DNA from: Anaeromonas gelatinilytica
GTDB lineage: Bacteria; Bacillota; Clostridia; Tissierellales; SIT17
DNA length: 64,000 nucleotides
Direction: 5' to 3'
Assembly: GCF_016820635.1 (NCBI RefSeq)
Contig: NZ_WSFU01000008.1
Location: 1-64,000 of the forward strand
Shown here: one piece after another, positions 374-63,121 of the stretch
Numbering within the stretch: the stretch's first letter is position 1
Layout of the letters: each line of letters opens with the position of its first letter
The notes under the pieces: generated by a model
Database searches by the model: none
What the model was told of the DNA's origin: nothing
What the model saw: only the letters and a program-made list of their open reading frames with translations
Program-made: the position numbers and the translations under genes

Positions 374-434
374 TAAAAATCCTCCTTTATATTTAGTTAT
401 ACATCAATTATAATTATTTATATAAGTAATTTCT

Positions 435-448
435 GTAACTATTGTTAC
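435..448. promoter_or_regulatory. Crp/Fnr-type operator GTAAC-N4-GTTAC
   Basis: Perfect 5-bp inverted repeat GTAAC-TATT-GTTAC between the divergent cupin and Crp/Fnr genes. Its centre (441.5) lies 32 bp from the centre of a TATAAT hexamer (407-412) reading toward the cupin gene. With a start site about 10 bp past the hexamer, the operator sits near -42, the class II activator position. The spacing is seen; the assignment to the adjacent regulator is inferred. Confidence 0.6.
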
Positions 449-464
449 GAAAGGATGATTTTTT

Positions 465-1133
465 ATTATTAATAAAAATTTCTTAAATATTATTCAATCA
501 AATCCATTATTTAATGATATTTCTAATGATAGACTAAAAAAACTATTTGAATCTAATGAACTTTCTACAAAAAAATATTCAAAGGATGAAATAATATACT
601 TTCAAAATGAAGAATGTTCATCCTTCGATATATTAATCTCTGGAAAAGTTTCTATTCAAAAATTAGATGAAAATGGTAATATATTGACAATTACTAATTT
701 CTATCCAGGAGATTCCTTTGGAGGACAGATGATATTTGCTGACAACAATTATTATCCAATGAATGTTATATCAAAGGATGAATCAATAATATTAAATATA
801 AAAAAATCACTAGTTTTAGATTTATGTCAAAACAACAAACAATTTTTGTCTGAATTATTAAAGTCAATTTCTAACAAAACTCTTATAATAAGTAATAAAA
901 TCCATGATATATCTCTAAAAACTATTAGAGACTGTATTTTAGATTATTTAAAATACGAATATAAACTTCAAAATACTTTGACATTGAAAATGAAAATCAC
1001 TAAAAAAGAATGGGCAGAAAAAATTGGTGTTCATCGTCCTTCCCTTTCTAGAGAATTAATGAAAATGAAACAGGAAGGACTAATTGATTACACAAGAAAT
1101 ACTATTACTATAAAAGATATTAAAATTTTATAA
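465..1133 (+). CDS. Crp/Fnr family transcriptional regulator, probable AUU start
   Basis: Helix-turn-helix regulator of the Crp/Fnr family. The first in-frame ATG (684) would remove much of the cyclic-nucleotide-binding-like barrel. The same frame is open from 459 and encodes normal N-terminal barrel sequence. An AAGGA site at 451-455 is placed correctly for an ATT codon at 465, giving 222 residues, the usual family length. The C-terminal winged helix carries the recognition segment around HRPSLSRELMKM. The only upstream ATG (455) is one frame off across a T6 run and overlaps the ribosome binding site. No conserved Fnr-type cysteine cluster is apparent, so the ligand is unknown. Proximity to fprA hints at redox or nitrosative sensing; that is inference. 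Confidence 0.75.
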   Translation: MINKNFLNIIQSNPLFNDISNDRLKKLFESNELSTKKYSKDEIIYFQNEECSSFDILISGKVSIQKLDENGNILTITNFYPGDSFGGQMIFADNNYYPMNVISKDESIILNIKKSLVLDLCQNNKQFLSELLKSISNKTLIISNKIHDISLKTIRDCILDYLKYEYKLQNTLTLKMKITKKEWAEKIGVHRPSLSRELMKMKQEGLIDYTRNTITIKDIKIL

Positions 1134-30811: not shown

Positions 30812-31063
30812 TTTTATGACCCCTTTTCTTATTCTAGGCGCTAACCTATTTTTCACCTTAATTATACATAGGTGATATACATAATTCAATCTAAATTTTC
30901 AATTATATTATTAAGAAAATGTAATTTTTTAGACTATTTTAAATATAGATATCCTCCATATATTATTATTCATTAAAGCATTATAATGATAAATATTTAA
31001 TACCAATATGCAATATATAAATATCCCCTTTCATATTTTTAAAGTTACAATTCCATAACATTA

Positions 31064-31106
31064 TTGACTATTGGTCATTTCTGTTTTATAATATGACCAA
31101 TGGTCA
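31064..31106 (+). promoter_or_regulatory. promoter with two TetR operators
   Basis: TTGACT (31064-31069) and TATAAT (31087-31092) are 17 bp apart. Two related near-palindromes, TGACTATTGGTCA (31065-31077) and TGACCAATGGTCA (31094-31106), overlap the -35 box and the transcription start. Their centres are 29 bp apart, close to three helical turns. This is the expected arrangement for autorepression by the TetR protein encoded directly downstream. Confidence 0.85.
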
Positions 31107-31125
31107 TAAATAGGAGGTGTTAAAA

Positions 31126-31704
31126 ATATCTAAAATACAAAAAAATAAAATTCAAAAAGAAAATTCCCTTATGTCGTCTGCTTTTGAACTCTTCAGTACC
31201 AAAGGTATTAACGAAACATCTATTAGTAATATAGTTCATAAAGCCGGTGTAGCAAAAGGAACCTTTTATCTTTATTTTAAAGATAAATATGATATTTTGA
31301 ACAAAATTATACTTAATAAAAGTAGTCATTTATTAATTGAGTCTATGAATGCTACTAAATCTAAAAATTTCGCTAGTTATGAAGAAGCTATTTTATATTT
31401 TATTAATTATATTATTGAATATTTCAATAAAAATAAACTCATGTTGAAATTGATTTATAAAAACTTATCCTGGGGAGTGATAAAAAGAGCATCCAATGAA
31501 TATGAGGGAATTCATGAAATATATGATTTTTTTATGAATCTATATAAAGACTCTGATATAAGTGAACAGGATATAGAAAAAACATTATTCATTATTATTG
31601 ATCTAGTAGGTTCAGTTTGCTATAGCTCAATAATTTTAAATGAACCGGATACTATTGATAAGATGAAACCAATATTATTTGATACTATTAAAAAAATAAT
31701 TTAG
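31126..31704 (+). CDS. TetR family transcriptional regulator, probable AUA start
   Basis: Regulator of 192 residues. The DNA-binding helix-turn-helix is SNIVHKAGVAKGTFYLYFKDK, here named by its GTFYLYF core; the C-terminal ligand domain is unassigned. The frame has no ATG before residue 16. AGGAGG (31112-31117) is ideally placed for an ATA codon at 31126, yielding SKIQKNKIQKENSL after the first residue, a normal TetR start. An upstream in-frame GTG at 31117 lies inside the ribosome binding site and is unlikely. First gene of an operon with an MMPL and a YhgE-like protein (the MMPL start is 11 bp on), which it probably represses. Confidence 0.85.
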   Translation: MSKIQKNKIQKENSLMSSAFELFSTKGINETSISNIVHKAGVAKGTFYLYFKDKYDILNKIILNKSSHLLIESMNATKSKNFASYEEAILYFINYIIEYFNKNKLMLKLIYKNLSWGVIKRASNEYEGIHEIYDFFMNLYKDSDISEQDIEKTLFIIIDLVGSVCYSSIILNEPDTIDKMKPILFDTIKKII

Positions 31705-31715
31705 GGGATGATTAG

Positions 31716-33812
31716 ATGAATGTTTTTAGTAATCTTGTAGCTAAACATCGCAAATTAGTATTACTACTAGCTACATTATTATTACTACCTTCCTTATATG
31801 GAATGATTAAAACAAATATAAATTATGATATATTAGCTTATTTACCAGAAGATTTAGATTCTGTAAAAGGGCAAAATGTATTAAATGATACTTTTAAAAG
31901 TGCCTCCATGGGAATGTTAGTAATAGAAAATATGGAAGATAAAGATGTAATAGATGTAAAAGGAGAAATAGAAAAAGTAAAAGGAGTAGATTCAGTAACT
32001 TGGATAGATGATTTATTAGATATTAGCGTTCCTGAAGAAATACTTCCAGATGATATTAAAGACATATTCTATAGTGAGGATTCAACATTACTGATGATTA
32101 ATTTTCAAGACAAATCATCATCTGATATAACTCAAGATGCTATAGAAGATATAAGAGGTATTGTAGACGATAAAAGCTTTTTAAGTGGTATGTCTGCTGT
32201 TATAAAAGACACAATAGATTTAGCTGATTCTCAAACTCCAATATATGTTGGCCTAGCTGTAGTATTAGCTATATTAATATTAATTTTAACTTTGGAATCA
32301 ACTGTTGTACCTTTTATCATTCTAATTAGTATAGGCTATGCCATAGTGTACAATTTTGGAAGTAATATATTCTTAGGTGAAATATCATATATTACTAAAT
32401 CATTAGCTGCTGTACTCCAACTAGGAGTCACATTAGATTATTCAATTTTTCTTCTTCATAGATTTCAAGAAGAATCAAAAAATACTGATGATAAAGAAAC
32501 GGCTATGGCACATTCTATATCTAAGACTGCTTCTTCAGTAATAGGAAGTTCTTTAACAACCATTGCAGGCTTTTTATCAATAGCCTTTATGGAATTAACT
32601 ATCGGAAAAGATATTGGTATAGTAATGGCTAAAGGTGTAATTTTAGGGGTTTTATCTGTATTGACTATACTTCCATCTTTAATACTTGTATTTGATAAAC
32701 CTATTAATAGATTCAAACATAAAACCCTATTACCTGAATTTAATAAATTATCAGATCTAGTCACTAGAAAATATAAATTTTTTATTATAGTAGGTTTAAT
32801 TTTATTTTTACCTACTCTATATGGACAATTAAATAATGACGTGTACTATAATTTAGATGAATCACTGCCAGATGACCTAGATTCAATAGTTTCTTTAGAA
32901 AAACTCAAAACTAATTTTAATATGACCACAACTCATATGGCAATAGTATCTGATAAAGTACCTGACTATGAAATATATAAAATGATTGACAAAATAAAAA
33001 ATGTAAAAGGAATAGAAAATGTGCTAACATATCAAACTTTCATCGGACCAGGTATTCCTGAAAATTTTATTCCAGAAAAAGCTAAATCTAAATTTCAAAA
33101 AGATGGCTATAAACAATTAATCATAAATTCTAAATATAGAGCAGCAACTGATGAAGAAAATATTCAAATCAAAAAAGTAGACAAAATAATCAAAAACTAT
33201 GATGAAAAGGCTATGTTGACTGGAGAAGGTGTCTTAACAAAAGATTTAATTGACATTGCGGATAGAGATTTTAAAAGAGTTAATTTAATTTCTTATTTCT
33301 CAGTATTTATTATAATAATGCTAATATTTATATCTTTTTCCATACCACTATTACTTATATTAGTAATAATGCTAGCAATATTTATCAATATGAGTGTACC
33401 ATTCTATCTAAATCACTCTATACCTTTCATTGCTAGTATAGTTATTGGATCTATACAATTAGGGGCTACAGTTGATTATGCTATTTTGTTAACTACTAGG
33501 TTTAAAGAAGAACTAAAAAATAATACGGATAAATTTAAATCTATGCAAATAGCAGTAAGAGAATCATCAAAATCTATTATAACTAGTGGATTAACCTTTT
33601 TTGCTTCTACAATTGGTGTAGCAATAATATCAAATATGGAATTTATAAGTAGTTTATCCACTATGATTGCAAGAGGAGCATTGATAAGTACAGCAGTTAT
33701 ACTATTTATTTTACCAGGATTATTATTAGCTGCTGAATCAATAATTAATAAAACAACAAAAAATTGGGTTTCTAATACTAAAAGGAAAGGAAGTAATGTA
33801 AATGAAAAATAA
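31716..33812 (+). CDS. MMPL/RND superfamily transporter
   Basis: Integral membrane protein of 698 residues with the two-fold RND plan: TM1 (about 12-30), an extracytoplasmic domain (to about 170), a five-helix block (about 172-330), then TM7 (about 345-365), a second extracytoplasmic domain, and a final helix block (about 520-680). Both blocks contain the conserved TLDYSIFLLHRF / TVDYAILLTTRF segment typical of MMPL proteins. Such transporters export lipids or hydrophobic compounds. It sits directly downstream of a TetR gene and overlaps the next gene by 11 bp. Confidence 0.92.
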   Translation: MNVFSNLVAKHRKLVLLLATLLLLPSLYGMIKTNINYDILAYLPEDLDSVKGQNVLNDTFKSASMGMLVIENMEDKDVIDVKGEIEKVKGVDSVTWIDDLLDISVPEEILPDDIKDIFYSEDSTLLMINFQDKSSSDITQDAIEDIRGIVDDKSFLSGMSAVIKDTIDLADSQTPIYVGLAVVLAILILILTLESTVVPFIILISIGYAIVYNFGSNIFLGEISYITKSLAAVLQLGVTLDYSIFLLHRFQEESKNTDDKETAMAHSISKTASSVIGSSLTTIAGFLSIAFMELTIGKDIGIVMAKGVILGVLSVLTILPSLILVFDKPINRFKHKTLLPEFNKLSDLVTRKYKFFIIVGLILFLPTLYGQLNNDVYYNLDESLPDDLDSIVSLEKLKTNFNMTTTHMAIVSDKVPDYEIYKMIDKIKNVKGIENVLTYQTFIGPGIPENFIPEKAKSKFQKDGYKQLIINSKYRAATDEENIQIKKVDKIIKNYDEKAMLTGEGVLTKDLIDIADRDFKRVNLISYFSVFIIIMLIFISFSIPLLLILVIMLAIFINMSVPFYLNHSIPFIASIVIGSIQLGATVDYAILLTTRFKEELKNNTDKFKSMQIAVRESSKSIITSGLTFFASTIGVAIISNMEFISSLSTMIARGALISTAVILFILPGLLLAAESIINKTTKNWVSNTKRKGSNVNEK

Positions 33813-35952
33813 TAAAACTTTAAAAGTTTTTATTAGCATTTTAATTATATCATTTTTATTTACAAATTTTGCAACAGCTGCAAGTCCCGTTGTTAAAGAT
33901 GAAACAGTTTATATAACTTTAGATCATGATGGTAAAGAATTGGAAAAAACTTCAAGCATATGGTTACATTCAGATAATGTCTTAAAAAATATAGAAGATA
34001 AATCTAGTCTAGACAATATCAAGAATATTAAAGGAAATGAAGAACCTGAAAAAAAAGGTGATAATCTTATATGGAATACAGATGATAAGGAAATATTTTA
34101 TCAAGGTACAACAGAAAAATCATTACCTATAAGCTTTGATATTAATTATTTTCTAGATAGTAAAAAAGTTAATCCTGAAGATATTTTAGGAGAATCTGGA
34201 GATTTAAAAATTAAAATAAAAGTTACTAACAATGATAAAGTGGATGATTTATATGTACCTTATGTAGTTGCATCCATAGTTACTCTTCCTACTAATAAAT
34301 TTACTAATATAAAAACTAATACTGGTAAAGTTTTATCAGAAGGAAATAATAATGTCGTATCTTTTGTATCTATACCTGGTTTAAAAGAAAGTTTAGATTT
34401 AGATAATGATATGATTGATCTTCCTAACTCTATAGAAATAAATGCTGAAGTTAAAGACTTTGAAATGAATTCTATATATTCAACAATTCTCACAAAATTG
34501 CCTGAAATAGAAGAAATGGATAAAGAAAATGATATAGATAGTTTATTAGACGGTATTGATAAAATTAAAGACTCTAGTGATAAATTAACTGATGCTAGCG
34601 AAAAACTATATCAAGGTCAAAACGATTTAAATGATGGATTAAATACTTTTATGAATGGTATAATGGATTTAAGTTCTGGCAGTAACACCTTAAAAGATGG
34701 ATTGAATAAATTAGAAAATGGAATGGGTTCAGCAAAAGATGGAAGTGAAAAAATTAGTGAAGGAGCTAATAAGCTATCAGATAGTAGCAATGAATTGGGG
34801 AAAGGTATAGACGCTTTAGGTAAAGGTACATCTGAGTTTGGTAAAAAAGCTATGAAATTTTCTAGTTCAGCTCAAGAAATATCAAAAGGACTTAAAAATA
34901 TACCTGAAAATACCAAAAAACTAAATTCGGGAATGGATTTAATAATAGAAAATACAGAAAAAATACATGATACTCAAACTCAACTTACTTCTGGTTTAAA
35001 ACAAAGTACAAAGGCTTCCAAAGACTTAATATCTGCTAAAAAAGCAGAAAATGAAGGGGTTAAACAATTAAAATTAACTATAAATAAATTAAATGAAGTT
35101 ATTAAATCTTTAGAAGGAACTCCAGGGCAGGAAGCTACTATTGAGGCTCTTACAACAATAATGAATACTCAACAAGCAACACTAGATCAATTAGAAGCCG
35201 GTGGTAATGATATTTTAACAGGACTTAATCAGTTAAACGCAGGCTTAAATAAATCAAAAAATGGCTCTAGTGAATTATCTACTGGTTTAAATACTATTAA
35301 TGAAAAACAAGGTGATGTTAATGCAGGTATATCTCAATTAAAAGAAGGAACTAAATCATTAGGAACATATTCTGATAAACTTATTGAAGCAAGTAGACAG
35401 TTAAATAATGGTGCTAAATCAATATATGACAATAGTCAGTTATTACTAGAAGGATTCTATAAATTTGAAAAAGGAAGTAATGATTTGGCTATTTCAACAA
35501 ATACCTTATCTACAGCATTAGGCACTTTAAAAGGTGGTACACAAGAGTTAGTTAATGGTAGTGAACAACTATCTAATGGTGGAAGTTTATTAGCTGTAAA
35601 CAGTGGAAAATTAATATCTGGAAGTGAAAAATTAGTTAAAAATAGTAATAAATTTAAAGATAGTATGAATGAATTCAATGAAGAAGGAATAGATAAAATG
35701 TCCTCTGAAATAGAACCTCTAACTATAGACGCTGAAAAAATATTAGATAATAAAGATAAACTTGTTGAATTGTCAAAAGAAAATACTAGTTTTTCAGGTA
35801 TAAATAAAGATATGGAAGGTGAACTTAAATTTATATTAAAAACTCCTGAACTAAGGCAAGAAGATAAATCAAATGATGAAAATGTTGAAACAAAAAATGA
35901 AGATGAATCAAAAGGATTTAAAGAATGGCTAAAAAACCTTTTTAAAAAGTAA
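33802..35952 (+). CDS. secreted YhgE/Pip-like coiled-coil protein
   Basis: Exported protein of 716 residues: signal peptide (about 1-27, cut near ATAA), a beta-rich domain (about 30-230), then a very long heptad-like region (about 250-640) with degenerate repeats of the type LxxGxxxLxxGxxxLxxG, the hallmark of YhgE/Pip coiled-coil stalks. The acidic/lysine C-terminus (KEWLKNLFKK) has no membrane helix. It overlaps the MMPL gene, so the two are probably a functional pair, with the stalk bridging the wall. The precise role is unknown. Confidence 0.8.
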   Translation: MKNNKTLKVFISILIISFLFTNFATAASPVVKDETVYITLDHDGKELEKTSSIWLHSDNVLKNIEDKSSLDNIKNIKGNEEPEKKGDNLIWNTDDKEIFYQGTTEKSLPISFDINYFLDSKKVNPEDILGESGDLKIKIKVTNNDKVDDLYVPYVVASIVTLPTNKFTNIKTNTGKVLSEGNNNVVSFVSIPGLKESLDLDNDMIDLPNSIEINAEVKDFEMNSIYSTILTKLPEIEEMDKENDIDSLLDGIDKIKDSSDKLTDASEKLYQGQNDLNDGLNTFMNGIMDLSSGSNTLKDGLNKLENGMGSAKDGSEKISEGANKLSDSSNELGKGIDALGKGTSEFGKKAMKFSSSAQEISKGLKNIPENTKKLNSGMDLIIENTEKIHDTQTQLTSGLKQSTKASKDLISAKKAENEGVKQLKLTINKLNEVIKSLEGTPGQEATIEALTTIMNTQQATLDQLEAGGNDILTGLNQLNAGLNKSKNGSSELSTGLNTINEKQGDVNAGISQLKEGTKSLGTYSDKLIEASRQLNNGAKSIYDNSQLLLEGFYKFEKGSNDLAISTNTLSTALGTLKGGTQELVNGSEQLSNGGSLLAVNSGKLISGSEKLVKNSNKFKDSMNEFNEEGIDKMSSEIEPLTIDAEKILDNKDKLVELSKENTSFSGINKDMEGELKFILKTPELRQEDKSNDENVETKNEDESKGFKEWLKNLFKK

Positions 35953-56872: not shown

Positions 56873-59800
56873 TTATAGGTACTATATCAATTAAGAAAAA
56901 GAGTTTAAAAATAATCCTTGACATTGATGTTTCAATTCCTTATAGGTACTATATCAATGTTATATTAAAAGATTTTGATTTAAATGTAGCTTTCAAGTTT
57001 CAATTCCTTATAGGTACTATATCAATTGTGTTTTCAACTATTAACATTTTTTCACCACTGAAGTTTCAATTCCTTATAGGTACTATATCAATTTAGCACT
57101 CTTTAAGTCCACTTTATTAAATATAGAATTGTTTCAATTCCTTATAGGTACTATATCAATGATAAACATGAAAACTTGTACAGTAGAAGGATGCAAGTTT
57201 CAATTCCTTATAGGTACTATATCAATGAAATAGCAGGTCTTACATGGTCTGATATAGATTATAGTTTCAATTCCTTATAGGTACTATATCAATCTTCCTT
57301 GAGATTCTGCTAAAGGAATTAATTTATTCAGTTTCAATTCCTTATAGGTACTATATCAATTTAAACTTTCAAAAGCTGGAGGGATAGCATGAGTAAAAGT
57401 TTCAATTCCTTATAGGTACTATATCAATCCTGCTACCGTTCTCCATAACCACTTTAAATTATCTTGTTTCAATTCCTTATAGGTACTATATCAATGGTCT
57501 ACAAATGTAGACTTTCCTACATAACTATCTGCAGTTTCAATTCCTTATAGGTACTATATCAATGATGAATGGTATCAAGAATATGGTTTATATTTTGCAT
57601 TGTTTCAATTCCTTATAGGTACTATATCAATTGTATGAAGTGGTTAGGTTTTATGGAAGAGAATGAAAGTTTCAATTCCTTATAGGTACTATATCAATAA
57701 TTATCTATCTTTATACCTTCGACTATAGAGGTAGAGTTTCAATTCCTTATAGGTACTATATCAATTCAACCGATAACTTTTGCAGCAATTCAGAATCAGA
57801 AGTTTCAATTCCTTATAGGTACTATATCAATTTACATTCCTCCTCTTTTTTATTTTTCTATTATCCAAGTTTCAATTCCTTATAGGTACTATATCAATGA
57901 TGGCGGAACATTAAAATTTGATGAAACGGATACAAGTTTCAATTCCTTATAGGTACTATATCAATATAAATCAGGAGAATTTAATGTACCTTTTGGAAGA
58001 TAGTTTCAATTCCTTATAGGTACTATATCAATGAAAAATTTGATAGTCAAGATTACGATATAAAATTAAAGTTTCAATTCCTTATAGGTACTATATCAAT
58101 CTAATTGGTTATTAAACATGGTAAAACTTCTTAAAATGTTTCAATTCCTTATAGGTACTATATCAATGTATGAAAGGATATAGAATATACATATCTTCTA
58201 TGGGTTTCAATTCCTTATAGGTACTATATCAATTATGTACTTTACCCCTTCTTCAATGAAATCACTTATGGTTTCAATTCCTTATAGGTACTATATCAAT
58301 TTTCAAGTATTTCTCCTTCTGATTCATCATCTTCTAGGTTTCAATTCCTTATAGGTACTATATCAATCTTCTAAGTGATTTTTATTTGTAATATCAATAT
58401 TTCCGTTTCAATTCCTTATAGGTACTATATCAATTTATTTGAAGAAGAAAAACCAAAACCACCACAAATTGTGTTTCAATTCCTTATAGGTACTATATCA
58501 ATAACAATAGTTCCTGGTACATTCGTAAGCAAGTTAGGGTTTCAATTCCTTATAGGTACTATATCAATTCTACTGCTTTTTTTTGAGCTTCTTCTCCAAA
58601 TCCAGGTTTCAATTCCTTATAGGTACTATATCAATTCTCTAACGATATAAAATCAGATAACATTTGAATACGTTTCAATTCCTTATAGGTACTATATCAA
58701 TTGAACACAATGAAGTAAAAGACATAATTGATTATTGGAGTTTCAATTCCTTATAGGTACTATATCAATGGGGTTCCAAGACAAGACTTGGGATTTTCCA
58801 GAAAAGTTTCAATTCCTTATAGGTACTATATCAATTATCATTTCTTTTTGCAGTTTTTTAGACTCTTCCTCGAGTTTCAATTCCTTATAGGTACTATATC
58901 AATTTCACTAGAAGCTCCATATGATGATGCTATGACTTAGTTTCAATTCCTTATAGGTACTATATCAATGATATTGATTTTATACTAGAAACTTTAGATA
59001 TGGCTGTGTTTCAATTCCTTATAGGTACTATATCAATAAGAACATAAAGAACGGGAGAATGGCAAATTAACGATGTTTCAATTCCTTATAGGTACTATAT
59101 CAATTTTACAAAAATAATGTGTGGTCTATGTATAAATCAAGGTTTCAATTCCTTATAGGTACTATATCAATTGACAATTTACAAAGCCCGACTTTAAAAC
59201 CTTTTCAGGGTTTCAATTCCTTATAGGTACTATATCAATTCTATACACAACTGCATATGAGAAAATACATGCAAGTTTCAATTCCTTATAGGTACTATAT
59301 CAATTATAAGTGAATTAATCTTGACCATACATTTTTATTTCGTTTCAATTCCTTATAGGTACTATATCAATTAGGCTTCCTTTCCTTTAACTGTATCTAA
59401 GCTATCATGTTTCAATTCCTTATAGGTACTATATCAATTAGGTAAGACAGTAACTTCACTTACTGCAATAGAAGAATGTTTCAATTCCTTATAGGTACTA
59501 TATCAATCACAGAAAAAGCTATAGATAGTTTACTTACATTTTGTAGTTTCAATTCCTTATAGGTACTATATCAATCTAGATTTAAAAGACAGTGTGTTTT
59601 CTGGGGAACGAGGTTTCAATTCCTTATAGGTACTATATCAATGTAACTCAAATGTTCAAAAAGTTACAAAAAGAAGTAAGTTTCAATTCCTTATAGGTAC
59701 TATATCAATTGATTGTATGGAAAGACATCCAGGAACATCATTAGCGTTTCAATTCCTTATAGGTACTATATCAATTATCAGAATCGGTGATTATTACGGA

Positions 59801-60509
59801 AAAGAGAATGTGTTTCAATTCCTTATAGGTACTATATCAATCAAAAAAATTAGACATAATGAATTCAAAGGATTGGGGGTTTCAATTCCTTATAGGTACT
59901 ATATCAATCTAGAATCTGTAGTTACTGATCTTTTACTAATTTTCTCGTTTCAATTCCTTATAGGTACTATATCAATAATAAGATCACAAATAGTTAAAGA
60001 TTTAATTAAAACGTTTCAATTCCTTATAGGTACTATATCAATGTAATTAATTGAGGTATAGCTGACAATATTCCAGATGTGTTTCAATTCCTTATAGGTA
60101 CTATATCAATTTTGTGCTAATCCACCAGCTTTGTTAAAACCGGACAAGTTTCAATTCCTTATAGGTACTATATCAATTGTTCTCCAACTCATCATATCCA
60201 CTGTACCACTAGAGTTTCAATTCCTTATAGGTACTATATCAATTAGATATAACTTCTGGTCCTTTTGTAGTTACTGTATGTTTCAATTCCTTATAGGTAC
60301 TATATCAATAACCTTTGCTTTTTAAACCTTCGTCAATAGCTCTTAGTTTCAATTCCTTATAGGTACTATATCAATTCTAGTGCACTCTTTTTATCTGTCA
60401 AGTCAATATCATCGTTTCAATTCCTTATAGGTACTATATCAATAGGTGTTAACCTCCAAAATTCTTCGGGCTTTAGACCGTTTCAATTCCTTATAGGTAC
60501 TATATCAAT
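56862..60509 (-). CRISPR. CRISPR array, 55 repeats, 54 spacers (type III-A locus)
   Basis: 55 copies of a 30-nt repeat, plus-strand form beginning GTTTCAATTCC and ending ACTATATCAAT. 54 are identical; the leftmost (56862-56891) has three changes. Spacers measure 35-39 nt, mostly 36-38. On the minus strand the repeat ends ATTGAAAC, the standard 8-nt crRNA 5' handle, so transcription runs right to left; the degenerate repeat is then at the far (trailer) end, and the leader is on the csm6 side. All repeats are evenly spaced with no rearrangement. I saw no two identical spacers by eye. Confidence 0.98.
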
Positions 60510-60651
60510 CCACTCAAATATAGGTATATAGCCATTTATCTTTTTATATACCTTGAATACTATGATATTGATATATATTCTATATTAATTTTAAATTTCC
60601 TTCTGTTATAGTAATATTCCTAAAATGTTTATTTTTATTTATAAAAATAAA
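60510..60651 (-). promoter_or_regulatory. CRISPR leader
   Basis: About 140 nt of AT-rich DNA between the first repeat and the hairpin. AGGTATATA/TATATACCT (60522-60530, 60545-60553) form a 9-bp inverted repeat 12 bp from the first repeat; its TATACCTATA part resembles the repeat core. A second dyad, TTTATTTTTAT/ATAAAAATAAA, lies at 60628-60651. The array promoter must be here, but I cannot place it confidently. Confidence 0.75.
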
Positions 60652-60704: not shown

Positions 60705-62042
60705 TTATCTCTTCTTATATGATCTTTTTATTTCTTCTATTGAAACTTTATTTGGAATTTCTTCTATACTCTTATCGTCTAAAATACTTATTATCGTTTC
60801 AAAATAATTATTAAAGTTATCTATATCATCTACATATGTTGCTTTATTTCCCTCTGGCATAGCATGGGCTATTCTTTTTCTAATTCTATTAACACTTTTA
60901 TATTCTTTTTTTAATTTAAGTATTCTTTTATTTTCTCTTATAACTTTAACATTAAACATAACAGATTTTGCTAGTTCTCTTTTTTCATGATTAGTAGAAT
61001 CTAGATCGTAAATATCACATAATCTTGTAACTATTGATTCTATTAAGCATATATAAGCACTACTATATCTACTATTCTCATTAAACCATTTTGACATCTC
61101 TAATTGAAATTTATAATCTTTTTCTATGTTTGCAAATCTCTCTATGAATTCTCTAATTGTAGTGGAAACATACTTGAACATACCCATATCATCTAAATTA
61201 GCTTTATTAAGTTTCTCACTTAAGTTATTTATTTGTTTCCTAATTCTAAAAATATAATTTATATTTATAGCATGTGTCATATTCTTGATGTTTTTCTTAA
61301 TCCCTTTATCTTCTACAAGTTCAGATATTAAATATCCATTTCCATAATTAACGAAATCATTTGTACCTCTTATCCACCTAGAAATCTCAAGTAAGGATTT
61401 TAAATCAACTATAGGTACTAATCCATCATCATCTTTTGCTTCAAACATCCCATAATATACTCCCTTTATATGGATTTCTTGAGTCTTTAAAGTTCTTATA
61501 AAGTCCAACATCAAATACAAAAATAATGGTATTGATCTAAAGGAATGGGTTATATCCAGATATACTTCATCTTCTGGATGTATTTCATTACTTATCATCA
61601 TAAAAATGTCTAGATTATAAAAAAGTTCCTTTTCATCAACTCCATATTTAATTAAAAAACATTTTGAATCATCTTTAGATTTAAAATTAAAAGACTTTAA
61701 ATATTTATTTATGGATATATTCACTTTTTCTAATATTTCTTCATCATAGCCTTCAGATTTATAATCAAATCTTTCTATTTCTTCCCCTAGTTGCTCCCAA
61801 TAATTAAAATCAATATTACTATTTATTTTTTCTTGAAAATGATAATACACTTCTTCCCACATAGATTTTCCTGTACCTATAAAAAATATTTTATCCACTT
61901 TATTTTCTTCCGCTAATGCAGAGGCTACAAAAGGAGTCTTGTATATTTTCCCATTTTCATTAAACTTATATGTCGCAGAGTAATATCTTCGATCTTCTTT
62001 TTTTCTTCCTACTCCTAATGGAGATATTAAAATTTTAGCCAT
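60705..62042 (-). CDS. CARF-HEPN CRISPR effector (TM1812/Csx2-type, Csm6-like)
   Basis: 445 residues. The N-terminal CARF domain begins MAKILISPLGVG and carries GTGKSMWEEV and DITHSFRSIP, the TM1812-family signature that binds cyclic oligoadenylate made by Cas10. The C-terminal HEPN RNase domain has the catalytic R-x4-H, RKRIAH (R388 to H393). Last gene of the csm operon, its ATG overlapping the csm5 stop. When Cas10 detects target RNA, this protein should degrade RNA non-specifically. Symbol left blank because csm6, csx1 and csx2 are used inconsistently. Confidence 0.9.
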   Translation of the reverse strand: MAKILISPLGVGRKKEDRRYYSATYKFNENGKIYKTPFVASALAEENKVDKIFFIGTGKSMWEEVYYHFQEKINSNIDFNYWEQLGEEIERFDYKSEGYDEEILEKVNISINKYLKSFNFKSKDDSKCFLIKYGVDEKELFYNLDIFMMISNEIHPEDEVYLDITHSFRSIPLFLYLMLDFIRTLKTQEIHIKGVYYGMFEAKDDDGLVPIVDLKSLLEISRWIRGTNDFVNYGNGYLISELVEDKGIKKNIKNMTHAININYIFRIRKQINNLSEKLNKANLDDMGMFKYVSTTIREFIERFANIEKDYKFQLEMSKWFNENSRYSSAYICLIESIVTRLCDIYDLDSTNHEKRELAKSVMFNVKVIRENKRILKLKKEYKSVNRIRKRIAHAMPEGNKATYVDDIDNFNNYFETIISILDDKSIEEIPNKVSIEEIKRSYKKR

Positions 62043-63121
62043 TATCTATTCTCCTTTTTTGTGATCTTTACCCAACCAAATACATCTTCAATATCTCCAT
62101 TTCTATAAATTATGCTTCTAGTTTTAGGAAATCTTTGATCTATCTTTCCTTTAAATTTACCCAATTTATTTAATTCATGTTTATGTATCAAATGTCCTAT
62201 TGAATTATCATAATAAGTCTTTCCTGAACCTACCCTTAAAATAAATCCTTCTTTATCTTCTTGTAAATTTAATATTTCATTTTTTATATTTTTATACTTA
62301 TTTAATAATTTGCTAAACACAATTGAATCTGATCTTTCAAAAGTCTTTATTTCTTCTTCAATACATTTAAGTGAAAATCTGTTTATCATATTAAATAACT
62401 TTTCAAGATTTTCATCTCCATATAGATAATCTAATTTTGATGGTATCTTTTTATGTATATTTTTTATTGCCTTTCCTTGAATACTTATTTCTGATTCCTC
62501 ATTTTCTTTTATAGATTCACTGACAATTGGATTTGCATTTTTCTTTTTTATAAGATGATACCTATATCCCTTCAGAACCTCCAATGAATTATCTAAAAAA
62601 GAAGAACTGTCAGATACATAAAGAAATTTTAAATTATCATCTCCAAAGGCTCCAAATACATCTCCACCTATATACCCTCTACTTTTAAGTTTAGAATAAT
62701 CATATCTATCTTCCTCTATGTGATTATACAATAAAGCAGTTCTAATTGAGCCCTTAATACTGCTCCCTGGTATGTAAGGATTAGACTGACTATCTACTAT
62801 AGTTCTCTTTATTTCTTGATTTATTTCATCATTAGTTTTTAATTCCAAATGAATAAAATCTCTATAATCTAAATTGTTGTTCTTAAAAAAATCTATTAAT
62901 CTATATTTATTCTGTATATTTGTTCTCGCTCCTAAATTTACATATTTAATATATTCATCCATTAAAGAAGAATTTTTATCATTTTCCATAAAAAATTCGT
63001 CTATTTTACTATGATCTACATAATATATCTTCTCATCAGAATATATATAGTCAGAATATGAAGTTAATTTATCTCTAGATCCAATATTTATAGGTGATAA
63101 AGTCTGTATCTTAAATCTCAT
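62042..63121 (-). CDS. csm5: type III-A RAMP protein Csm5
   Basis: 359 residues, a RAMP (RRM-like) protein at the crRNA 3' end of the Csm complex. Starts MRFKIQTLSPINIGSRDKL. It has the conserved YIPGSSIKGSIRTALLYN segment, typical of Csm5 and Cmr6 proteins, and a late glycine-rich loop LRVGSGKTYYDNSIGH. Stop overlaps the effector start by one base, and its own start abuts csm4. Confidence 0.92.
   Translation of the reverse strand: MRFKIQTLSPINIGSRDKLTSYSDYIYSDEKIYYVDHSKIDEFFMENDKNSSLMDEYIKYVNLGARTNIQNKYRLIDFFKNNNLDYRDFIHLELKTNDEINQEIKRTIVDSQSNPYIPGSSIKGSIRTALLYNHIEEDRYDYSKLKSRGYIGGDVFGAFGDDNLKFLYVSDSSSFLDNSLEVLKGYRYHLIKKKNANPIVSESIKENEESEISIQGKAIKNIHKKIPSKLDYLYGDENLEKLFNMINRFSLKCIEEEIKTFERSDSIVFSKLLNKYKNIKNEILNLQEDKEGFILRVGSGKTYYDNSIGHLIHKHELNKLGKFKGKIDQRFPKTRSIIYRNGDIEDVFGWVKITKKENR

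Follow-up and report, generated by a model that had tools for sequence, protein, structure and literature searches.

Apparent AUA start codon in a TetR repressor gene with twin putative operators, and candidate AUU, AUA, and AUC starts in related Tissierellales

Here, we propose that positions 31126-31704 of a 64,000-nucleotide stretch of Anaeromonas gelatinilytica DNA (positions 1 to 64,000 of contig NZ_WSFU01000008.1, hereafter the window) encode a TetR repressor of its own operon, composed of tetR, an MMPL transporter gene, and a gene for a coiled-coil protein, and that this repressor is translated from an AUA codon at 31126. We assign a probability of roughly 0.83 to this reading, which is based on sequence comparison. 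The window has a GC content of 27.8%, and the locus is located on a 72-kb contig of a 2.89-Mb assembly comprising 146 contigs. Natural AUA and AUU starts are held to be very rare, and the wider pattern of AUU, AUA, and AUC (AUH) starts described below is more interesting than the single tetR gene.

Results

The open frame of tetR (31126..31704, forward strand) specifies 192 residues plus a stop codon. Its match to TetR_N (PF00440; 1.2e-13, 51 bits) exceeds the Pfam gathering score of 24 and starts at residue 16, counted from the ATA, in agreement with the predicted TetR identity of the gene. The curated NCBIfam cut-offs were not reached for FadR (47.7 of 200 bits), AcrR (46.4 of 271 bits), and MtrR (46.1 of 280 bits). 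AcrR, MtrR, FadR, and YvdT, which have the TetR_N domain in common with the repressor, are among its nearest named matches, the similarity being distant. These regulators have operators over their promoters. Eleven nucleotides after tetR follows a gene for an MMPL/RND (HAE3-like) transporter (31716..33812, forward strand), overlapped by a gene (33802..35952, forward strand) for a coiled-coil-like protein of 716 aa, which contains X-X-X-Leu-X-X-Gly repeats and whose N-terminus is hydrophobic. Judging from the gene spacing, the three genes probably form one operon, the likely target of the repressor.

Upstream of tetR, sequence inspection and a promoter scan identified a -35 hexamer, TTGACT (31064..31069), separated by a 17-bp spacer from a -10 hexamer, TATAAT (31087..31092), both on the forward strand and accompanied, as originally predicted, by two 13-bp near-palindromes. 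The putative operator O1 (TGACTATTGGTCA, 31065..31077, forward strand) overlaps the -35 hexamer and is self-complementary at 10 of 13 positions, and the putative operator O2 (TGACCAATGGTCA, 31094..31106, forward strand), self-complementary at 12 of 13 positions, directly follows the -10 hexamer and would cover the expected transcription start. With 11 of 12 consensus matches, this promoter was the best of 8 promoter-like matches in 30880-31740, a number not above that in shuffled sequences of this region (mean 9.6, sd 3.1).

The pattern TGACN4GGTCA occurred in the 64-kb window solely at O1 and O2 (3 strand matches, 0.07 expected), and TGACYAWTGGTCA was present in the whole A. gelatinilytica assembly (G000) solely at the O1/O2 pair. 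Among the congeners, a homologous pair was found in G003, one site in G001, and none in G002. Because a reversed control pattern of TGACYAWTGGTCA also matched in G001 and G003 (2 strand matches each, representing one site; 0 matches in G000 and G002), single sites of this type can be due to chance. The one palindrome in G001, a genome without tetR at E <= 1e-40, counts against the proposal. The motif TGAC-N5-GTCA recurs upstream of 69 of 94 tetR loci, with two to three sites within 170 nt in 54 loci, one in 15, and none in 25. In loci with exactly two such sites (n=49), these are 40-44 bp apart in 27 cases and 29 bp apart in two, the latter being the spacing of G000 and G003. Two palindromic sites at the gene's own promoter, unique in the assembly and built on a motif recurrent in relatives, represent the arrangement of an autoregulated TetR gene. 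The twin operators, as putative binding sites lying over the promoter and nowhere else in the assembly, thus lend support to the autorepression suggested by the original prediction. Since the exact operator motif is restricted to O1 and O2, the repressor, provided that it binds there as the sequence suggests, would control only its own operon.

An SD sequence, AGGAGGTG (31112..31119, forward strand; predicted -14.1 kcal/mol), includes AGGAGG at 31112-31117, and the proposed ATA start codon (31126..31128, forward strand) is situated 8 nt after AGGAGG, as first described. The combination of a strong SD and normal spacing to an AUH codon is hence present in this gene; in predicted pairing, 9% of 289 SD-led canonical starts in a genome sample are at least as strong. 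An in-frame start upstream of 31114 is impossible, because the frame opens there, just after a TAG. A mini-frame in the same frame, extending from ATG 31093 to TAG 31113, starts upstream of the expected transcript start and was rejected by inference. At the conserved N-terminus, tetR has no in-frame ATG, GTG, or TTG with an SD, and the sole in-frame canonical codon ahead of codon 16 is a GTG at 31117..31119 (forward strand), located inside the SD. With this refinement, the claim that no ATG, GTG, or TTG serves better as a start holds. A point against the AUA start is that the leader is predicted to fold weakly (-3 kcal/mol, z -0.88), with the AUA and some of the SD paired in a common stem.

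Comparison with G003 is central to the assignment of the start codon. Its locus (L007) reads AATAGGAGGTG-CTAAAA-ATA-TCT, and the operator pair and its 29-bp spacing are as in G000. Both tetR genes share 90% DNA identity and 88% protein identity, with the SD, its spacing, and the ATA all retained. With a dN of 0.053 and a dS of 0.383 (dN/dS ~0.14), the repressor protein is under purifying selection. At E <= 1e-40, tetR was detected in two of the four genomes of the genus, and both have the ATA. This confinement of the ATA-started tetR to two species, 90% identical in DNA, counts against the proposal.

To place the start position in a broader context, 94 tetR loci were aligned, the window's own included, of which 14 came from the comparison-genome set (window included) and 80 from other genomes. 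They represent 93 distinct sequences, since L017 of G050, a genome of the same order, equals L041 of Caloranaerobacter azorensis, a species assigned to Tissierellales; further close relatives belong to Tissierellia. An SD-led canonical start was found in 86 loci (64 ATG, 13 TTG, and 9 GTG), and 47 of these starts coincide with the ATA codon and 9 precede it by one codon, which identifies the ATA position as the one where most relatives start. Eight loci lack such a start: the two congeners have ATA, and six loci have a canonical codon that is not accompanied by an SD match of at least 4 nt. ATA occupies this column in a third locus, L051, but there an ATG and a separate SD lie upstream.

GTG 31117, the first start codon in a mechanically compiled ORF list, would result in a protein three residues longer (M-L-K-I-S...). 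Besides being the only in-frame ATG, GTG, or TTG before codon 16, it is kept in the congener, and starts three codons upstream of the ATA position occur in 4 of 86 orthologs. However, each of these four has its own SD, whereas GTG 31117 overlaps the SD and is preceded at 4-12 nt by no SD-like match of at least 4 nt. Its conservation is expected anyway, as it is part of AGGAGGTG, and a GTG in the SDs of RNase Y and infC is in frame at some loci and out of frame at others, while the ATH codon stays. A point in favor of the GTG is that the sole substitution between GTG and ATA in G000 versus G003, TTA to CTA, would be synonymous if GTG 31117 were the start. On balance, we consider initiation at this GTG unlikely and reject it in favor of the AUA.

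Still less probable is a shorter repressor starting at the internal ATG of codon 16 (31171..31173, forward strand), correctly noted earlier as a methionine 15 codons downstream. It is the first ATG of the frame, and the TetR_N match begins at residue 16, but the congener has ATT (Ile) here, no SD is visible before the ATG, and the N-terminal segment ahead of this codon resembles the N-termini of relatives. AUA and AUG differ in the third base alone, and one A/G difference would give ATG, but a sequencing or assembly error is exceedingly improbable, because the congener keeps SD, spacing, and an identical ATA in the assembly of another species, and AUH starts were also found in other genes of several genomes. 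Neither an ATG in place of the ATA nor a start at the internal methionine, the outcomes that would contradict the original prediction, was thus borne out by comparison with the congener, and a natural AUA start of this tetR is very likely on the available sequences.

A second regulator of the window, a Crp/Fnr-family open frame (459..1133, forward strand) with cNMP_binding and HTH_Crp_2 domains, has its first canonical codon at index 75. Because this codon lies inside the cyclic-nucleotide domain, translation has to begin at some non-canonical codon if the sequence is intact. We identified an SD, GAAAGGA (449..455), by sequence inspection and, by comparison with the fetched loci, a putative ATT start (465..467), both on the forward strand. 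This is in line with the predicted occurrence of two regulators with an AUH start in the window, if the Crp/Fnr gene is the second one that was meant. A match was detected in 39 of 60 genomes, and 12 loci were fetched. G002 has AAAGGATGATTTTTT-ATT as in G000, so that ATT is found in two of the three congeners with the gene (G000 and G002). In 10 of the 12 loci, namely, G001 and nine others, an ATG is present at or within a few codons of the ATT position. A palindrome, GTAACTATTGTTAC (435..448, forward strand), is situated just upstream of the SD. By eye, palindromes of the GTAAC...GTTAC type are found just upstream of Crp/Fnr in 11 of 12 loci, which suggests that this gene may also be autoregulated; the motif occurs somewhere in 12 of 12. 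GTAAC-TATT-GTTAC (window positions 430-458) can also fold as an RNA hairpin whose base includes the GAAA of the SD, so the same element could be an operator and a ribosome-binding-site hairpin.

The proposed survey of this genome for AUU and AUA starts, carried out on about 400 kb (354-359 ORFs of at least 100 aa), yielded five firm candidates, encoding TetR, Crp/Fnr, RNase Y, thiamine diphosphokinase, and a second TetR, in addition to a probable ATA start of MgtC. The latter was not counted as firm, as two congeners have ATG three codons on. Similarly not counted were a K+ channel gene with ATA, in which ATG follows two codons on, the genes for FliK, PilZ, Cas1, a lipoprotein, an SNF transporter, and a radical-SAM protein in G001, and L234 and SpoVAA-like L245 in the comparison genome G051. 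The SNF (sodium-dependent) transporter gene (L208, 18578-19948) has an apparent ATT start behind GGGGGTGA.

RNase Y (L129, 16157-17698, and L148-L177) displays an apparent AUU, AUC, or AUA start behind AGGAGGTGC-like SDs. The gene was present in 41 of 41 genomes, and 25 of 30 fetched loci have AUH alone behind the SD; four were scored canonical, one of them on account of a probably spurious TTG upstream of the SD, and one was neither. For infC, found in 40 of 41 genomes, all 30 fetched loci have AUH at the start position (23 ATT, 4 ATA, and 3 ATC), behind an SD of the AGGAGGTG type. The thiamine diphosphokinase gene (L135, 8956-9588, and L280-L295) has ATT in four of four congeners and ATG (11) or GTG (1) in 12 other fetched loci. 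Together with Crp/Fnr, it represents an apparent ATG-to-ATH switch. The second tetR (L141, 9694-10320), on another contig, has an ATT start, and its first canonical codon (index 48) falls within TetR_N; in the 15 other fetched loci, the aligned position or one adjacent to it is a canonical codon. A near-palindrome, cgacatggtcg, is located upstream of this gene. The pyrR codon that is ATT in G001 is ATG in G000 and G051, and the gene had no match in the searched parts of G002, G003, and G040. UvsE of G002 has ATT, with the first canonical codon at index 105. CcpN of G051 (L246, 5040-5699) has an apparent ATT start behind GGGAGAGGTGGTGAT at profile position 1, and an in-frame ATG without SD lies seven codons upstream. 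These findings suggest that AUU, AUA, and AUC starts recur among the sampled relatives of the order.

Unfiltered candidate rows per ORFs numbered 9/354 in G000, 9/501 in G001, 5/533 in G002, 3/166 in G003, 2/147 in G040, and 4/390 in G051, several being chance or ambiguous on reading. A strict orphan-SD test of little power gave an ATH excess in G001 (p 0.0028) and G003 (p 0.037), but no significant excess in G000 (0.22), G002 (1), G040 (0.2), and G051 (0.36). An excess of AUH starts in the genus over other genera is therefore suggestive only and not statistically supported. In a screen of 145 non-overlapping ORFs of one 151-kb contig for conserved N-termini, 18 were flagged, of which only thiamine diphosphokinase and MgtC were AUH-like at the conserved N-terminus; the screen can miss cases, because RNase Y went unflagged. 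Two other screens were discarded, one that was swamped by antisense ORFs and one for conserved SDs without canonical start, whose 984 rows, as far as listed, were mostly inside coding sequence.

Discussion

We propose that the repressor would bind O1 over the -35 hexamer and O2 over the start site, shutting off its own promoter, and that the long SD might hold the 30S subunit so that the initiator tRNA accepts AUA. On top of autorepression, AUA would lower, not abolish, repressor synthesis, and a moderately reduced yield could provide low basal repression and fast induction of the efflux operon. In this probably autoregulated repressor gene, we view the AUA as a weak start that can be tuned.

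The original prediction regarded AUA initiation as very inefficient, which is doubtful considering the strong SD of tetR and published reporter data. According to passages of a clostridial study, AUU, AUA, CUG, and AUC behind one leader reached 5-20% of AUG activity in Clostridium butyricum and 7-17% in C. sporogenes, compared with 0.1-0.3% in E. coli. Behind another leader, the six non-AUG codons all reached 45-85% and 40-100%, respectively, compared with 0.04-3% in E. coli (PMC9680021). In these contexts, AUU and AUA thus work far better in the two clostridia than in E. coli. In Staphylococcus aureus, AUA and AUU leaders are given as ~10% of AUG, and the AUA of ccpN as up to 30% in rich medium (PMC13009471). 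Since these reporters retain activity, AUA probably lowers rather than abolishes synthesis of the repressor; the same efficiencies and the strong SD make its predicted scarcity hypothetical. Extended SDs are seen in the S. aureus paper as an aid to weak starts (PMC13009471), whereas part of a review describes over-extended SDs as themselves discriminated against (PMC4611024), which counts against such a role of the SD here.

tetR is not the first gene of its kind, because a repressor with an AUA start is already known. The S. aureus precedents named in text from PMC13009471 are ccpN and infC with AUA and cvfC1 with AUU. Like tetR, which is known here from its sequence, ccpN encodes a transcriptional repressor and has an AUA start behind a long SD; its use of a non-canonical start is conserved with Bacillus subtilis (PMC13009471). 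The apparent ATT start of CcpN in G051 echoes this published AUA start. In contrast to tetR, which adjoins an MMPL efflux gene and has twin operators, ccpN encodes an HTH-CBS protein of central metabolism. infC resembles tetR in its AUH start behind a AGGAGGTG-like SD but is subject to feedback by its own product on the ribosome; tetR could be affected by IF3, without feedback through IF3. Streptomyces sigR, as presented in part of PMC5472188, also encodes a transcription regulator whose level is kept low by a non-canonical start, and this start was misannotated to a nearby canonical codon. Unlike tetR, it starts with GTC, is repressed by IF3, and encodes a sigma factor balanced against an anti-sigma factor (PMC5472188). 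The AUU and AUA starts described in passages on C. butyricum and C. sporogenes are heterologous, in engineered constructs of another lineage and not in natural genes (PMC9680021, PMC11040787). Searches of the open-licence PMC literature yielded no report of natural AUU or AUA starts for Tissierellales, RNase Y, or a TetR gene.

It might be that AUU, AUA, and AUC are near-ordinary starts in these clostridia, initiation being relaxed, and that the AUA of tetR has no regulatory meaning. This possibility contests the regulatory role and not the AUA start, and its odds are separate from those of the alternatives weighed above. The efficiencies of 5-100% of AUG, depending on the leader, in the clostridial reporters (from passages of PMC9680021) and the occurrence of AUH at enzyme genes (thiamine diphosphokinase and UvsE) speak in its favor. 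On the other hand, an SD-led canonical codon (237 ATG, 35 TTG, and 22 GTG) is present in 294 of 359 ORFs of the A. gelatinilytica sample, compared with five firm AUH genes, of which three encode regulators. Moreover, no clear lesion was seen by eye in the IF3 protein of 30 loci, and a standard initiator-type anticodon stem is present in G001. Of 41 genomes, 20 contain this stem (GGGCTCATAACCC), but it was not found in G000, G002, and G003, whose tRNA clusters are perhaps poorly assembled. The 16S tail GGNTCACCTCCTTTC was found in G001 and G003 and not in G000 and G002. Relaxed initiation accordingly has some plausibility, though we lean toward a regulatory role of the start.

IF3 discriminates against codons such as AUA, according to part of a review (PMC4611024). 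The tetR start might be IF3 sensitive, and the gene of IF3 itself also appears to start at AUH. Because IF3 discriminates against AUH and seems itself to be made from an AUH codon, it is tempting to speculate that AUU, AUA, and AUC form a third tier of starts in this order, switched gene by gene (TetR, Crp/Fnr, PyrR, thiamine diphosphokinase, UvsE, and the second TetR) and accompanied by the widely kept starts of infC, RNase Y, and perhaps CcpN, which may constitute a translational regulon tied to IF3 supply. We regard this as a rather doubtful proposal, which, if true, would couple the stringency of initiation to RNA decay (RNase Y), efflux control, and global regulators.

Five firm AUH candidates in about 400 kb of one genome, several of them common to congeners, are of interest considering that distant relatives of this group use such codons well in reporters (passages of PMC9680021). 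Gene finders restricted to ATG, GTG, and TTG would probably choose GTG 31117 for tetR, misplacing its start into the SD, and would truncate Crp/Fnr by ~70 residues. RNase Y is a main mRNA-decay enzyme, and its apparent AUH start in most sampled relatives makes translational control of RNA decay directly testable.

Elsewhere in the window, a CRISPR array (56921-60530) contains 54 repeat copies (GTTTCAATTCCTTATAGGTACTATATCAAT), spaced by 66-68 bp among the repeats listed, and is followed by a TIGR02221/TM1812-type CRISPR-associated gene at 60705-62045 on the reverse strand.
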